NCBI GenBank assembly: GCA_902515355.1
Contig: CABXUA010000008.1
Location: 1 to 44,184 of the forward strand
DNA length: 44,184 nucleotides
Direction of reading: 5' to 3'
Source of the DNA: an uncultured Pelagibacteraceae bacterium
GTDB lineage: Bacteria > Pseudomonadota > Alphaproteobacteria > Pelagibacterales > Pelagibacteraceae
The translations under genes and the position numbers were made by a program. This document shows positions 2 through 5,179 of the stretch, piece after piece; within the stretch, counting starts at the first letter, position 1, and every line of letters begins with the position of its first letter. The notes below the pieces were generated by a model that was given only the letters and a program-made list of their open reading frames with translations, had not been told where the DNA came from and searched no databases.

Positions 2-565
2 TGTCTAAAAAATAAAATAAAATTAATTTATTCAGCTACGTCTGCTTCATTAGGAAACAAAGGAGAGGATAAAAATCTATCACCTTATGCTTTTACAAAA
101 GCTAAAAATCTAGAAATTTTAGAAAATTTAAAAAAATGGTTTAAATTTAAATATGAAGTTATTTATTTTTATAATGTTTATGGACCAAACCAAATTTGTA
201 AAGGTAAAATGGCTACAGTAATTGGAATATTTGAAAATCATTTTAAATTAAATAAACCTCTACCTGTAGTAAAACCCGGGACACAAACAAGAAGATTTAC
301 TCATATTAATGATACTGTGAAGACATGTTATTTTGCTTGGAAAAAAAATAGGTGTAGGCATTACAGTATTGCTAATCGCAAAACTTATTCTGTTTTAGAA
401 GTAGCTAAATTATTTAAAACTAAAATTAAATATTTACCAAAAAGACCTGGAGAAAGATATGCTTCGGCTTTAACTAATATGAACCTTTCAAATAGAGTAT
501 ATAAAATATTTGGAAAAATCGATCTAAGAGATTATATAAAAGAATTTTTAATAAAAAACAGTTAA
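2..565 (+). CDS. NAD-dependent sugar epimerase/dehydratase, C-terminal part (cut by window edge)
   Basis: The frame is open from base 2 and reads well before the first ATG at 209, so the gene starts outside the window. Upstream of that ATG it encodes YSATSAS, then SPYAFTK, which is the YxxxK catalytic pair of extended short-chain dehydrogenases, followed by YNVYGPNQ. These are the usual order and spacing for UDP-glucose 4-epimerase-like enzymes. Further on, a TRRFTHINDT stretch matches the family's substrate-side segment (usually RDFxxVxD). About 187 residues are visible; the N-terminal NAD-binding GxxGxxG part is missing. It probably makes an activated sugar for surface polysaccharide, in line with the glycosyltransferases elsewhere in the window. 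The exact substrate cannot be told. Its stop codon overlaps the end of the convergent apt gene by 4 bp. Confidence 0.85.
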   Translation, partial: CLKNKIKLIYSATSASLGNKGEDKNLSPYAFTKAKNLEILENLKKWFKFKYEVIYFYNVYGPNQICKGKMATVIGIFENHFKLNKPLPVVKPGTQTRRFTHINDTVKTCYFAWKKNRCRHYSIANRKTYSVLEVAKLFKTKIKYLPKRPGERYASALTNMNLSNRVYKIFGKIDLRDYIKEFLIKNS

Positions 566-1089
566 TGTCCAGGAAAGTCAATTAAACATTTAACTAAATA
601 AGATTTCTTTTCTAGTAGTTTTTTGCCAGGTAAATCAAAAAGGTTAATAACAAAAACAAAACCTGCAACAGATCCCCCTGACATTTCAATCAATTTAGCA
701 GCTGCCTCAGCAGTTCCTCCAGTAGCAATTAGGTCATCAATAACTAATATATTTTCATTTTTTGATATAGAATCTTTATGAACTTCTATTGTAGCGCTTC
801 CATATTCGAGTTGAAAATCAACAGAGTGTCTATCGGCAGGTAATTTATTTTTTTTTCTTAATAATACCAATGGCTTATTAGTTAAATAAGATACAGCTGA
901 CGCAAAAACAAAGCCCCTTGATTCTATTGCCGAAATTTTATCGAACTTCATTCCTTTTGATAATTCTACAATCTTATCTACTGTAAAGTTAAAAGCATCA
1001 GGATGTTTTATTAAAGTAGTAATATCTCTAAACAAAATACCTTTTTTAGGATAGTCTTTTATTGATCTTATGTGTTTTTTCAAATCCAT
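562..1089 (-). CDS. apt: Adenine phosphoribosyltransferase
   Basis: Converts adenine and PRPP to AMP and pyrophosphate in the cytosol. The PRPP-binding motif VIDDLIATGGTA lies near residues 116-127, and the N-terminal DYPKKGILFRDIT block is typical of bacterial Apt. About 175 residues is the normal length. I start at the ATG at 1089; the frame is open to a TTG at 1101, but the family normally begins close to this ATG. The gene is divergent from mtnP, with 43 bp between the starts. Context gives it a clear job: MtnP releases adenine from methylthioadenosine and Apt returns it to AMP. The 3' end overlaps the convergent epimerase by 4 bp. Confidence 0.95.
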   Translation of the reverse strand: MDLKKHIRSIKDYPKKGILFRDITTLIKHPDAFNFTVDKIVELSKGMKFDKISAIESRGFVFASAVSYLTNKPLVLLRKKNKLPADRHSVDFQLEYGSATIEVHKDSISKNENILVIDDLIATGGTAEAAAKLIEMSGGSVAGFVFVINLFDLPGKKLLEKKSYLVKCLIDFPGH

Positions 1090-1132
1090 ATTTAGCTTCA
1101 ATATCTAGCAAAAAAGGATTAATAATTAAATC

Positions 1133-1999
1133 ATGAAAAAAAGAAAACTTGGGATAATTGGGGGTAGCGGCTTATACAAAATCGAAGGATTTGAAAATGA
1201 AAAGTGGAAAAAGGTTAAAACTGCTTGGGGAGAGCCTTCTGGAATGCTTACTGCAAGCTTAAATAAAGAAGAAGTTTGTTTCATTCCTAGACATAGCAAA
1301 GGTCATAGAATTAATCCTACAAAAATAAATTATAGAGCTAATATAGATGCACTTAAAAGATTAGGGGTAACTGATATTGTTTCAGTTTCTGCAGTGGGAT
1401 CACTTCAAGAACATTTGTTACCTGGTACATTTGTGATTATAGATCAATTTATCGACAGAACGTTTTCAAGAGAAAAAACTTTTTTTGACAATGAAATAGT
1501 TGCCCATGTCTCTATGGCAAAACCTACAAGTCCATCACTTATGAAATGTTGTGAGTCGGCACTCATAAAATCAAAAATTAGTTACCAAAATGGTGGCACA
1601 TATTTAGTTATGGAAGGACCTCAATTTTCTAGTTTAGCTGAATCTAAAATGTATAGATCTTGGAAAGCAGATGTCATTGGTATGACCAATATGCCAGAGG
1701 CTAAATTGGCAAGGGAGGCAGAAATTAGATATTGCACTGTAGCTATGGTTACAGATTTTGACTGTTGGCACCCAGATCATGATGAGGTCGATGTGCCTAC
1801 TGTAATTAAAACTTTACAACAAAATGCTTCCAATGCTCAAAATATGATTAAAGAAATTATAAAGACATTTAAATCTTTTCCACCTAAAAACGATCCTGCT
1901 AATGACTGTTTAGACACTGCTATTGTCACTGCTCCAAAATTTAGAACAAAAAAAACAATTAGCAAACTTAGAATAGTTGCTGGAAGAGTATTAAAGTGA
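1133..1999 (+). CDS. mtnP: S-methyl-5'-thioadenosine phosphorylase
   Basis: Cleaves 5'-methylthioadenosine with phosphate to adenine and 5-methylthioribose-1-phosphate. The N-terminal phosphate loop GIIGGSGLY, the PRHSKGHRINPTKINY block and the MEGPQFSSLAES segment are all present. VTDFDCW near residues 207-212 places two aspartates (D208, D210) where human MTAP has D220 and D222, which read the 6-amino group of adenine. This favours MTA over hypoxanthine-type nucleosides. 288 residues is normal. Its last codons overlap the GTG start of mtnA (GTGA). It is the first gene of a same-strand run with mtnA, a class II aldolase and speDE. MTA phosphorylases of this type can often also use 5'-deoxyadenosine. 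Confidence 0.95.
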   Translation: MKKRKLGIIGGSGLYKIEGFENEKWKKVKTAWGEPSGMLTASLNKEEVCFIPRHSKGHRINPTKINYRANIDALKRLGVTDIVSVSAVGSLQEHLLPGTFVIIDQFIDRTFSREKTFFDNEIVAHVSMAKPTSPSLMKCCESALIKSKISYQNGGTYLVMEGPQFSSLAESKMYRSWKADVIGMTNMPEAKLAREAEIRYCTVAMVTDFDCWHPDHDEVDVPTVIKTLQQNASNAQNMIKEIIKTFKSFPPKNDPANDCLDTAIVTAPKFRTKKTISKLRIVAGRVLK

Positions 2000-3066
2000 G
2001 AATAAATGGAATAAAATATCGTACAATTTGGTTTGAAAATAATACTGTTAAAATTATTGATCAAACAAAGCTTCCGCATAAGTTCATTATAAAAGATCTT
2101 AAGACAGTAAGTGATGCGATTAATGCTATTAAAGTTATGGAGGTAAGGGGCGCACCCTTAATAGGAGCAACAGCTGCTTATGGGATGGTTCTTTCAATTA
2201 TTGAAAATAATGATCAATCGTTTTTAAAAAAGTCTGCACAAGATTTAATTAATTCTAGACCGACTGCAATCAATTTAAAATGGGCTGTTGATAGGATGAC
2301 TAAAAAGCTTTCAGGAGTTAATAGTGAAAAGATCTTAGAATTAGCATTAAATGAAGCTAATGAAATTTGCGAGGAGGATATCAAATTTTGTGAAAATATT
2401 GGATTAAATGGTCTTAAGGTAATTGAGGAAATTTATAATAAAAAAAAAGATACAGTTAATATTTTAACTCATTGTAATGCTGGCTGGCTGGCAACTATTG
2501 ACTGGGGTACAGCCACTTCTCCTATTTATCATGCTCATCAAAAAGGAATTAAAGTTCATGTTTGGGTAGATGAAACCAGACCAAGGAATCAAGGGGCCAA
2601 TTTAACATCCTATGAATTTAATGAAGAAAAAATTCCTAACACTGTAATCACTGATAATGCAGGAGGAATTTTAATGCAAAGAGGTCAAGTTGACATGTGT
2701 ATTGTAGGTACTGATAGAACTTTATCTAATGGCGATGTATGTAATAAAGTCGGCACCTACTTAAAAGCACTAGCTGCAAAAGATAATAATGTTCCATTTT
2801 ATGTGGCATTACCAAGTTCAACTATTGATTGGAATATCAAAGACTATAAACAAATTCCAATCGAGGAGAGAAATTCAGATGAATTATCTTATGTAGAAGG
2901 GATAGACAAAGACAATAAGGTCACGAAAGTTAGAATTTACCCACCAAAAAGTAAAGCCATGAATTTAGCATTCGATATAACACCAGCAAAATACGTTTCA
3001 GGTTTAATTACCGAAAAAGGAATTTGTGAGGCTTCAGAAAGAGGTTTAAAAGGATTGTTTAAGTGA
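1996..3066 (+). CDS. mtnA: S-methyl-5-thioribose-1-phosphate isomerase
   Basis: Isomerises methylthioribose-1-phosphate to methylthioribulose-1-phosphate. Relative of eIF2B-alpha. The motifs VRGAPLIG, LTHCNAGWLAT and VGTDRT are intact; the catalytic cysteine and aspartate fall at C160 and D240, the same numbers as in the Bacillus subtilis enzyme. 356 residues is the usual length. Translation starts at GTG, overlapping the mtnP stop by 4 bp (GTGA), and its own stop overlaps the GTG of the next gene in the same way, which implies translational coupling through the three genes. No mtnK kinase is needed because MtnP already yields the 1-phosphate. Confidence 0.95.
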   Translation: MRINGIKYRTIWFENNTVKIIDQTKLPHKFIIKDLKTVSDAINAIKVMEVRGAPLIGATAAYGMVLSIIENNDQSFLKKSAQDLINSRPTAINLKWAVDRMTKKLSGVNSEKILELALNEANEICEEDIKFCENIGLNGLKVIEEIYNKKKDTVNILTHCNAGWLATIDWGTATSPIYHAHQKGIKVHVWVDETRPRNQGANLTSYEFNEEKIPNTVITDNAGGILMQRGQVDMCIVGTDRTLSNGDVCNKVGTYLKALAAKDNNVPFYVALPSSTIDWNIKDYKQIPIEERNSDELSYVEGIDKDNKVTKVRIYPPKSKAMNLAFDITPAKYVSGLITEKGICEASERGLKGLFK

Positions 3067-3707
3067 GCAAATTAAAATCTGAAATAATTAAATATTCTAA
3101 AAAATTAAATAACACAAATTTATCAGCTTTAAGATCTGGAAATATTTCAGCAAGAGGAAAAGTGAATGGTGTTGATGGATTTTATATAACACCTTCAGGA
3201 AAAAAATACTCCTCTTTAAAACCAAAAGATATAGTTTTTGTGACTTTAAAAGGGAGATTCGATAAAAATAAAGGGAAACCCTCTTCAGAATGGAGATTTC
3301 ATCAAGATATTTATGTGAATAAAAAAGAAGCTAAAGCCATAGTCCATGCACATTCTACTTGTGCTACTGCAGTATCCACCCATCAAAAATCAATTCCTGC
3401 TTTTCATTATATGGTTGCAGTAGCAGGAGGCGAGGACATAAAATGCGCTAAATACGCAACTTTTGGAACAAGAAATTTATCTAAAAATATATTATCCGCA
3501 CTAAAGAATAGATCAGCGTGTTTAATTTCAAATCACGGACAGATTGCTTTTGGTTCAAATTTGGACCATGCCTTTGAGTTAGCACAAGAAGTAGAAAATA
3601 TTTGCCATCAATATATAAATGCCCTAAGAATTGGAATACCTAAAATACTTTCAAAAAAAGAAATAAAAATAGTTTTAGGTAAAATGAAAAATTATAAGAA
3701 AGGATAG
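3063..3707 (+). CDS. Class II (FucA/Ald2-type) aldolase, probable methylthioribulose-1-phosphate aldolase
   Basis: 214-residue zinc-dependent class II aldolase. The catalytic glutamate is E76 in PSSEWRFH, and the three zinc histidines are H95 and H97 (HAHS) plus H158 (NHGQ). All four sit exactly three positions after E73, H92, H94 and H155 of E. coli L-fuculose-1-phosphate aldolase, and the AGGEDIKCAKYATFGTR region is also FucA-like. The related dehydratase MtnB uses a different acid, so aldol cleavage is the better guess. Next to mtnP-mtnA with GTGA coupling, the likely substrate is methylthioribulose-1-phosphate (and perhaps 5-deoxyribulose-1-phosphate), giving DHAP and 2-(methylthio)acetaldehyde. 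This is the Ald2 role known from Rhodospirillum rubrum and some E. coli strains. Family assignment is firm; substrate is inferred from context. MtnB remains the main alternative. Confidence 0.85.
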   Translation: MSKLKSEIIKYSKKLNNTNLSALRSGNISARGKVNGVDGFYITPSGKKYSSLKPKDIVFVTLKGRFDKNKGKPSSEWRFHQDIYVNKKEAKAIVHAHSTCATAVSTHQKSIPAFHYMVAVAGGEDIKCAKYATFGTRNLSKNILSALKNRSACLISNHGQIAFGSNLDHAFELAQEVENICHQYINALRIGIPKILSKKEIKIVLGKMKNYKKG

Positions 3708-3713
3708 TTTTTT

Positions 3714-4754
3714 ATGATTAAAGTTGGAGAACATATTACTCTCGATTTCTTAGGTGTTAAAAAAGATTATTCGCCGTCTTTCTACGAAAAACTTATATAC
3801 AAAATTGCAAAATCTGCAAAAGTACAAATACTCAACGTTAATAGTCATGAATTTGAACCACAAGGATTTACCACAGTTGCGTTATTATCTGAAAGCCACA
3901 TGAGCTTTCATACATTTCCGGAGAGAGGAGTAATTAGTTTTGATTTTTTTACTTGCGGAAAAGTTCATCCAAAAATAGCTTTAAAAATTTTGAGGAAAGA
4001 AATTCAGCATGAAAGAGTAGTTACGAAGAGTTTCGATAGAAGTAGTATTAGTTTATATGATGATATTTATAGTACTCCTGGTCAAAAGAAGTATTATGTT
4101 GTGAAGGATGTTTTAGAAAGAATGACTACTAAAGTAGGCCAATACGTTGAGATTTTAAATCTTGAGGAGTTTGGAAATGCTTTATTTATTGATCATGAAA
4201 TTCAAGTTGCGGAAAAAGATGAAAAAGTTTACAGCTCAGCTTTCTTCAAATCAAGTTATGATTTAAGTAAAAAAAATTCTAATGTCGCAATTATTGGAGG
4301 TGGCGACGGCGGAGTAGCAAGAGCCTGTATAGAAAATAATTCAAACTTTATAGACTGGTATGAGTTGGACCCAGAAGTAGTAAATGTTTGTTATAAGCAT
4401 CTTCCTAAAGTTTGTTCTAAAGTAAAAAAAAGCAATAAAATAAAAACTTTCTGGGGCGATGCTTTCGAAAGTATTAAATCAATAGAAGACTCTAAATATG
4501 ATAAAATATTTGTAGATTTAAATGATGATCAGTATTGCATAGATCTTGCTAGAAAAAATATGAAAGGTCTGAAAAGAATTTTGAAAAAAGGAGGGGTAAT
4601 TACTGCGCAAGTAGGTAGCAACGATAAAAAACCTAAACAAGTTAACAACTGGTGCAGAGTTTTTGAAAAAAGTTTTGGAAATGTAACCTTGTCTGGCGCT
4701 CATATTCCAAGTTTTGATTGTAATTGGAATTTTGCATCTTCAATTATGAAATAA
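3714..4754 (+). CDS. Fused S-adenosylmethionine decarboxylase - spermidine synthase-like protein
   Basis: Two enzymes in one 346-residue chain. Residues 1 to about 115 are a class 1B SpeD proenzyme: LLSESHMSFHTFPE holds the E60/S61 self-cleavage site, H66 and C81 follow, each two positions before S63, H68 and C83 of Thermotoga SpeD. Cleavage at S61 would create the pyruvoyl cofactor. Residues from about 120 on are an aminopropyltransferase with GGGDGG (195-200), E217/D219 for the nucleoside, D249, and VDLNDD holding D268 and D271. The usual DPxGPA after this is absent (DDQYCID), and the YxE of the acceptor side reads YSS, so the polyamine pocket is unusual. Products would be an aminopropylated amine plus MTA, which feeds mtnP upstream. 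It starts at ATG 6 bp after the aldolase, with AAGGA as ribosome site. Confidence 0.88.
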   Translation: MIKVGEHITLDFLGVKKDYSPSFYEKLIYKIAKSAKVQILNVNSHEFEPQGFTTVALLSESHMSFHTFPERGVISFDFFTCGKVHPKIALKILRKEIQHERVVTKSFDRSSISLYDDIYSTPGQKKYYVVKDVLERMTTKVGQYVEILNLEEFGNALFIDHEIQVAEKDEKVYSSAFFKSSYDLSKKNSNVAIIGGGDGGVARACIENNSNFIDWYELDPEVVNVCYKHLPKVCSKVKKSNKIKTFWGDAFESIKSIEDSKYDKIFVDLNDDQYCIDLARKNMKGLKRILKKGGVITAQVGSNDKKPKQVNNWCRVFEKSFGNVTLSGAHIPSFDCNWNFASSIMK

Positions 4755-4786: not shown

Positions 4787-5179
4787 TTAATAAGATTTTA
4801 TTTCTTTAATGTTTGATCCTAAGTTTTGATTTATTTCTAATTTTATTTTTGCCCTTAAATCATTTAATTTATAAACATTTCTTGATAGTTGAATAAAATT
4901 TTCTCCGAAATCTTGTTTTTTTTCACACTCCCTTTTACCATCCTCTATGTCCCATAATTTTAAGTTGATCTCTTTTAGTTGAATAAAATGCTTTTCAATA
5001 ATGGATTTATTAGGGATAAATTTATCAAATGTTTTCTTTAAAGAATCGAGTTCTTTATTTACTTCATCTACATTTTTCTTATTAGAAATTTTATTTTTCT
5101 TAATTTCAAGTATTGTTATTTTATCTACTAATTCACCGGCTGATATCTCTGCCAATATCTTGTCCATTTTGGTATTCAT
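4787..5179 (-). CDS. DUF6165 family protein
   Basis: 130-residue soluble, charged protein of unknown function. The N-terminal ISAGELVDKITILEIKKNKI block, followed by a helical, coiled-coil-like middle (KELDSLKKTFDKF) and LWDIEDGKRECE, is the pattern I associate with DUF6165. There are two in-frame ATGs (5179 and 5167); the second would put the conserved block at the family's usual distance from the start. No signal peptide or membrane segment is visible. It is divergent from a GT9 glycosyltransferase with about 50 bp between them. Members of this family are often seen beside glycosyltransferase genes, so a role in surface-glycan synthesis is a reasonable but unproven guess. Confidence 0.75.
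   Translation of the reverse strand: MNTKMDKILAEISAGELVDKITILEIKKNKISNKKNVDEVNKELDSLKKTFDKFIPNKSIIEKHFIQLKEINLKLWDIEDGKRECEKKQDFGENFIQLSRNVYKLNDLRAKIKLEINQNLGSNIKEIKSY

Follow-up and report, generated by a model that had tools for sequence, protein, structure and literature searches.

The window analyzed here is the whole 44,184-nucleotide stretch of contig CABXUA010000008.1 (assembly GCA_902515355.1) from an uncultured Pelagibacteraceae bacterium, and it carries a compact cluster of apt, mtnP, mtnA, a FucA-fold class II aldolase gene and a speD-speE fusion (Table 1). Judged from its sequence, this cluster is very probably an MtnP-type dihydroxyacetone phosphate (DHAP) shunt encoded next to the enzyme supplying its substrate, 5'-methylthioadenosine (MTA). 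Relatives of the window replace the small aldolase by an aldolase-dehydrogenase fusion of family NF006192, which may carry the same pathway one oxidative step further.

MTA disposal beside spermidine synthesis

In the proposed route, SpeD-SpeE would make the triamine and release MTA, which MtnP would split by phosphorolysis with inorganic phosphate into adenine and 5-methylthioribose-1-phosphate. The adenine freed by MtnP would be reclaimed by Apt, and MtnA would convert methylthioribose-1-phosphate to methylthioribulose-1-phosphate. The predicted zinc-dependent class II aldolase would then cleave 5-methylthioribulose-1-phosphate into DHAP and 2-(methylthio)acetaldehyde. 5'-Deoxyadenosine may be handled by the same three enzymes, yielding acetaldehyde. 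No enzyme reducing or oxidizing the aldehyde was found in the cluster of the window, and alcohol and aldehyde dehydrogenases were not surveyed genome-wide.

The strongest case for SpeDE-derived MTA as the main substrate comes from the linkage to SpeDE. Across the 118 genomes of the family survey, MtnA and SpeD were both found in 84, MtnA only in four, SpeD only in ten and neither in 20. In total, 100 loci from 99 genomes were fetched, nearly all around SpeD matches, and their genes were clustered together with those of the window. SpeDE is held by 94 family loci, and in 93 of these it is accompanied by one or more MTA-disposal genes (mtnP, mtnA, the aldolase, the fusion or a nucleosidase-like gene); the single locus without any MTA-disposal neighbor is a contig end. 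The apt gene is present in 78 of the 94, the other 16 lying mostly at contig ends. The co-occurrence of MtnA and SpeD and the conserved SpeDE linkage support the pairing of shunt and polyamine synthesis put forward in the original prediction.

It has to be considered that the trio may serve mainly in the disposal of 5'-deoxyadenosine and 5-deoxyribose by a DrdA-type route, SpeDE being an incidental neighbor. According to Beaudoin et al. (PMC6079011), such trios act on 5-deoxyribose and are present in six phyla, and a further report describes the shunt as serving both substrates (PMC10986504). Nevertheless, this explanation is unlikely, given an MTA-disposal neighbor in 93 of 94 SpeDE loci and the joint lack of MtnA and SpeD matches in 20 of 118 genomes, including two of the 21 in the window's genus (G084 and G106). 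These two genomes, 93% and 89% complete, respectively, gave no match to MtnA, the PF00596 aldolase, the PF01048 phosphorylase or SpeD, a pattern as if the source and the disposal of MTA had been lost jointly.

Within the window, MtnP is the sole PF01048 match of its genome. It scores 436.2 bits against NF006492, slightly under the cut-off of 437, and its residues 207-210 read TDFD. C160 and D240 are both present in MtnA. The SpeD part of the SpeD-SpeE fusion exceeds the TIGR03330 cut-off, the SpeE part falls below the cut-offs of full-length SpeE models, and the motifs SESH and GGGDGG are located at residues 59 and 195. GTGA overlaps join mtnP to mtnA and mtnA to the aldolase gene, which is followed by speDE after a 6-bp gap. 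This layout, four plus-strand genes with a divergent apt, had been described in the original prediction together with the MtnP aspartates and the two MtnA residues, and all of these were found as described.

Table 1. Genes of the cluster and the adjoining gene, with positions in the window.
Gene and product	Length (amino acids)	Position	Strand	Profile match
apt, adenine phosphoribosyltransferase	179	562-1101	-	TIGR01090, 198.5 bits (cut-off 185.85)
mtnP, 5'-methylthioadenosine phosphorylase	288	1133-1999	+	TIGR01694, 294.6 bits (cut-off 274.85)
mtnA, 5-methylthioribose-1-phosphate isomerase	356	1996-3066	+	TIGR00512, 421.7 bits (cut-off 279)
FucA-fold class II aldolase, predicted Ald2/DrdA-type	214	3063-3707	+	PF00596, 8.4e-49
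speD-speE fusion (S-adenosylmethionine decarboxylase + aminopropyltransferase)	346	3714-4754	+	PF02675, 3e-26; PF01564, 3e-22
DUF6165 protein		4787-5179	-	

The host genome consists of 765,861 bases in 28 contigs and is 75% complete; the window is contig 8, with a G+C content of 29%. The small genome, this base composition and the SpeD-SpeE fusion together suggest a SAR11-type (Pelagibacterales) bacterium. An Rfam scan of the window and six loci detected three tRNAs only and no riboswitch at the cluster. The DUF6165 protein encoded after SpeDE belongs to a sequence cluster with members in 81 of 101 family loci. Many relatives (e.g., L033 and L031) carry after SpeDE a polar amino-acid ATP-binding cassette (ABC) transporter (binding protein and two permeases), a nitrilase-type amidase, or both, and neither is found in the window.

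The small aldolase and competing assignments

The aldolase of the window is predicted to be Ald2-type from its PF00596 match, catalytic residues, overlap with mtnA and clade, in a comparison that did not include the Ald2 sequence of Rhodospirillum rubrum. Residues E76, H95, H97 and H158, which the original prediction had singled out, do align to E73, H92, H94 and H155 of Escherichia coli FucA, which we take to be catalytic and zinc residues; the same four, as well as Y116, are invariant in the 16 family copies aligned. Among 34 aldolases placed in a tree, the copy of the window falls inside a clade of 30 (support 97/95) made up of 13 family copies, 12 mtnA-adjacent copies from the class and five others; the clade excludes E. 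coli FucA and three class copies. The class survey covered 289 genomes, three of them from the window's family, and the aldolase and mtnA are at most 5 kb apart in 54 of the 74 genomes holding both.

The best named match of the aldolase is E. coli FucA, and the catalytic residues are identical, so the protein could be a genuine FucA, an L-fuculose-1-phosphate aldolase for fucose breakdown, standing here by chance. This is very improbable. All FucA-like NCBIfam models gave scores under their cut-offs (NF005984, 202.4 against 264; another model, 189.7 against 264; TIGR01086, 186.1 against 400.25), the gene overlaps mtnA, and the protein groups with mtnA-adjacent aldolases. The only FGGY kinase of the host genome (75% complete) is GlpK, over both cut-offs, so that no kinase for making fuculose- or rhamnulose-1-phosphate was seen, and fucose or rhamnose catabolism was rejected for this genome on that ground. 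Among the 56 family genomes with the small aldolase, just 28 have any FGGY match, the matches being not identified further. Extremely improbable, in turn, is a truncated canonical methionine salvage pathway with its later genes elsewhere. MtnP and MtnA are common to that pathway, the genome is incomplete, and MtnC and MtnE were not searched. However, PF00596, which covers the relatives of MtnB, FucA and RhaD, gave no MtnB in the 75% complete host genome, its one match being the aldolase. MtnD (PF03079) reached the cut-off in none of the 118 family genomes, with three weak matches below it, and in 12 of the 289 class genomes. MtnK (TIGR01767) likewise reached it in none of the 118, with weak matches of at most 35 bits in 70. 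The host genome has no match to either, and canonical salvage was rejected for want of MtnB, MtnD and MtnK matches. The full MtnBCD/E set, named in the original prediction as the finding that would speak against a shunt, has thus been checked in part, with MtnB and MtnD lacking a match.

Several observations weigh against the reading of the cluster as a shunt or qualify the small-aldolase counts. Pairwise, the aldolase is nearer to E. coli FucA (E 1e-47) than to chain 6btd (4e-36), presumably the 5-deoxyribulose-1-phosphate aldolase of Bacillus thuringiensis. Three of the 20 fetched small-aldolase copies from the class fall on the FucA side, outside the mtnA-linked clade, and some of the small-aldolase matches in the class are probably true FucA. 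At 75% completeness, absence from the host genome is weak alone; the 118 relatives agree with it for MtnD and MtnK, although a good number of the genomes surveyed are themselves incomplete. Moreover, the shunt is dispensable in the group, as four relatives (L032, L038, L084 and L085) carry a single nucleosidase-like gene of 174-178 amino acids between apt and SpeDE and no mtnA. The encoded protein is closest to MTA/S-adenosylhomocysteine nucleosidases and falls under the NCBIfam cut-offs (one copy profiled). With such a protein, adenine would be released and methylthioribose lost; MtnK exceeds its cut-off in none of the family genomes. Genome G100 holds apt, mtnP and mtnA but neither aldolase type, and has no SpeD match.

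An aldolase-dehydrogenase fusion in the aldolase slot

Among 78 same-family loci with apt and SpeDE, the window included, the slot is filled by the small aldolase in 47, the fusion in 26, the nucleosidase-like gene in four and mtnP alone in one. The small aldolase is always on the SpeDE strand (47 of 47), with a 4-bp overlap with mtnA in 35, and the fusion is opposite to SpeDE in all 26 loci. Sorting of the PF00596 matches in the 118 family genomes gave 56 with the small aldolase, 34 with the fusion, none with both and 28 with neither. A flank-gene tree was built from those 70 of 101 loci with at least three of four flank markers; on it, parsimony requires five changes between the small-aldolase and fusion states, and both states occur inside single genera (g2 and g4). 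Cargo genes between mtnP, mtnA and the aldolase or fusion vary (e.g., L031, L034, L067, L076, L086 and L095), including a tautomerase, an alpha/beta hydrolase, an Ldh_2 dehydrogenase, a formaldehyde-activating-type enzyme, a small multidrug transporter, and an enoyl-CoA hydratase with a CoA-binding protein. Some of them could act on the methylthio product.

A similar exclusion was observed across the class. The MTA-type fusion was detected in 49 of the 289 genomes and a distant type in four, the two being split at an E-value gap (8.9e-137 against 3.6e-106). At E 1e-30, MtnA was found in 129 genomes (126 over the cut-off) and the small aldolase in 82. Of the 129 MtnA genomes, 71 have only the small aldolase and 42 only the fusion, three have both and 13 neither (Fisher p 7.6e-19, kinship ignored). 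When one genome per family was retained, 43 of 71 had the small aldolase, 21 the fusion, one both and six neither (p 1e-11). The fusion lies at most 5 kb from mtnA in 27 of the 45 class genomes holding both. Among named fusion loci, the best 80 of at least 581 relatives, 35 have mtnA (33) or mtnP alone (two) in the fetched flank, for instance those of Methyloceanibacter superfactus, a Magnetovibrio and a Ferrovibrio assembly.

The fusion is about 677-680 amino acids long and joins a class II aldolase (PF00596 at 30-222) to a short-chain dehydrogenase (SDR, at 431-670). In three overlapping alignments of only 14, 16 and 18 copies, E125, H139, H141 and H200 of the aldolase half and the Asn, Ser, Tyr and Lys of the SDR half are kept in all copies. 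In SDRs, an Asp at the end of the second strand favors nicotinamide adenine dinucleotide (NAD) over its phosphate (NADP). In the 14 family copies, the second strand ends in such an Asp, and D462 is invariant in the two wider alignments, which points to the use of NAD rather than NADP by the dehydrogenase. A structure model of one class copy (mean predicted local distance difference test score, pLDDT, 81.5) has matches to 3m4r, a class II aldolase domain, and to SDRs; solved structures among the matches listed cover one half of the fusion or the other, never the whole.

Taken together, many alphaproteobacterial MTA shunts (42 of 129 MtnA genomes in the class and 34 of 118 family genomes) may end in an NF006192 fusion that performs aldol cleavage followed by oxidation with NAD+, the locus having swapped the small aldolase and the fusion repeatedly; we regard this reading as evenly balanced between right and wrong. 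The fusion would cleave methylthioribulose-1-phosphate (and 5-deoxyribulose-1-phosphate), and then, within one protein, use NAD+ to oxidize the resulting 2-(methylthio)acetaldehyde to 2-(methylthio)acetate (or acetate). Of the two steps, context and exclusion lend better support to the aldol cleavage of the MTA-derived sugar phosphate. Oxidation, as opposed to reduction, is less well supported and is proposed by analogy: the SDR half should oxidize the released aldehyde because RhaEW does so. RhaEW, the only characterized fusion of this architecture that was found, combines an L-rhamnulose-1-phosphate aldolase with an NAD+-dependent L-lactaldehyde dehydrogenase, and its authors saw no activity with NADH (PMC3870299).

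The same analogy raises the question of whether the fusion is simply an ordinary RhaEW rhamnose enzyme whose adjacency to mtnA is accidental. Both combine a class II aldolase with an NAD-type SDR, with both active sites kept in the fusion, and RhaEW has been characterized (PMC3870299); in addition, 45 of the best 80 named fusion loci show neither mtnA nor mtnP in the fetched flank. Nevertheless, the explanation is quite improbable. Against the rhamnose model TIGR02632 (cut-off 567.75), three MTA-type copies scored 446-460 and two distant copies 1027 and 853; against NF006192 (cut-off 639), three MTA-type copies reached 887-975 and the rhamnose copies 408 and 442. The two distant class copies adjoin L-rhamnose isomerase and a rhamnose-binding protein. 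Rhamnose genes were identified only beside these two, the neighbors of the other 13 MTA-type loci being not annotated. Rodionova et al. place RhaEW orthologs always inside rha loci (PMC3870299). By comparison, mtnA or mtnP occurs in 24 of 37 fetched MTA-type neighborhoods and in none of the two distant-type ones, and MtnA is present in 45 of 49 genomes with the MTA-type fusion and in none of the four with the distant type. A long branch parts the two types in a quick tree of 11 of the 31 complete family copies and 39 class loci, which carries a long-branch warning; the 11 family copies form one clade. Based on the scores, the clade and the rhamnose genes beside the distant copies, assignment of the MTA-type fusion as ordinary RhaEW was rejected.

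The evenly balanced reading of the fusion as a cleaving and oxidizing MTA enzyme also faces contrary evidence. In the class, three MtnA genomes hold both aldolases, MtnA gave no match in 8 of 82 small-aldolase genomes and 4 of 49 fusion genomes, and the 71 genomes with the small aldolase only include those of two FucA-side copies (G275 and G145). The fusion is more than 5 kb from mtnA, or on another contig, in 18 of 45 genomes, and MtnD stands alongside the MTA-type fusion in six (G150, G195, G215, G228, G278 and G375). Some family genomes, including ones with the fusion, encode PF00596 proteins of 233-255 amino acids at other sites; judged to be of a different kind from length and score alone, these were not entered in the two-type count. 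The 45 named loci without mtnA or mtnP in the fetched flank, several of which are short contigs, include those of Reyranella soli, Enhydrobacter aerosaccus, Paramagnetospirillum caucaseum, Terasakiella and Defluviicoccus. At the R. soli locus (L266:5486-9977), the fusion follows a xanthine phosphoribosyltransferase and an alcohol-dehydrogenase-family gene, and a taurine-dioxygenase-like gene comes next. Purine and sulfur links may persist there.

Relation to known systems and significance

The DHAP shunt and the SpeD-SpeE fusion are already known. A SAR11 SpeD-SpeE fusion was reportedly described by Green et al. 2011. In a later study, SAR11 SpeE appears as a multidomain fusion with a broad substrate range (PMC8437039). 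SAR11 mtnA and mtnP may already be named in a supplementary legend of that study, its main text containing neither. The multidomain SpeE fusion of the window is alike, and what is added here is its constant MTA-disposal neighbor. In R. rubrum and R. palustris, MtnP, MtnA and Ald2 make 2-(methylthio)acetaldehyde and DHAP, as stated in PMC5893883. The window shares with them the three enzyme families, the order of action and the use of MtnP instead of a nucleosidase plus kinase. It differs in being joined to a polyamine locus (apt and SpeDE), and its relatives differ further in replacing the aldolase by the dehydrogenase fusion. The B. thuringiensis trio DrdK, DrdI and DrdA disposes of 5-deoxyribose and also cleaves the methylthio substrate in vitro, according to PMC6079011. 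It resembles the window in the isomerase and FucA-fold aldolase and may share both substrates, whereas the window has a phosphorylase in place of the kinase and a tie to SpeDE and apt.

The fusion variant of the shunt appears to be new. MTA-type fusions form a clade (NF006192) apart from RhaEW, miss the TIGR02632 cut-off and often stand by mtnA or mtnP. E. coli strains with the shunt accumulate methylthioethanol, as reported in PMC10986504. The route proposed for the fusion would be oxidative, whereas R. rubrum, R. palustris and E. coli are known to reduce the aldehyde to 2-(methylthio)ethanol. In the open-licence literature, no paper was found that assigns the NF006192 fusion to MTA, reports the two-aldolase exclusion or joins the aldolase with SAR11.

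Abundant as they are, SAR11-type cells are believed to require sulfur in reduced form. The route of MTA disposal decides whether the methylthio group is kept or lost for each spermidine made, and the shunt of the window would recover adenine and three carbons. If the proposed chemistry of the fusion is true, its carriers would have an oxidative, self-contained DHAP shunt that releases no free reactive aldehyde, and the fate of the sulfur would be set. This reading would also give a testable function, substrate and product to the widespread family NF006192, which is now named by architecture only. The two mutually exclusive solutions at one locus amount to a natural experiment.

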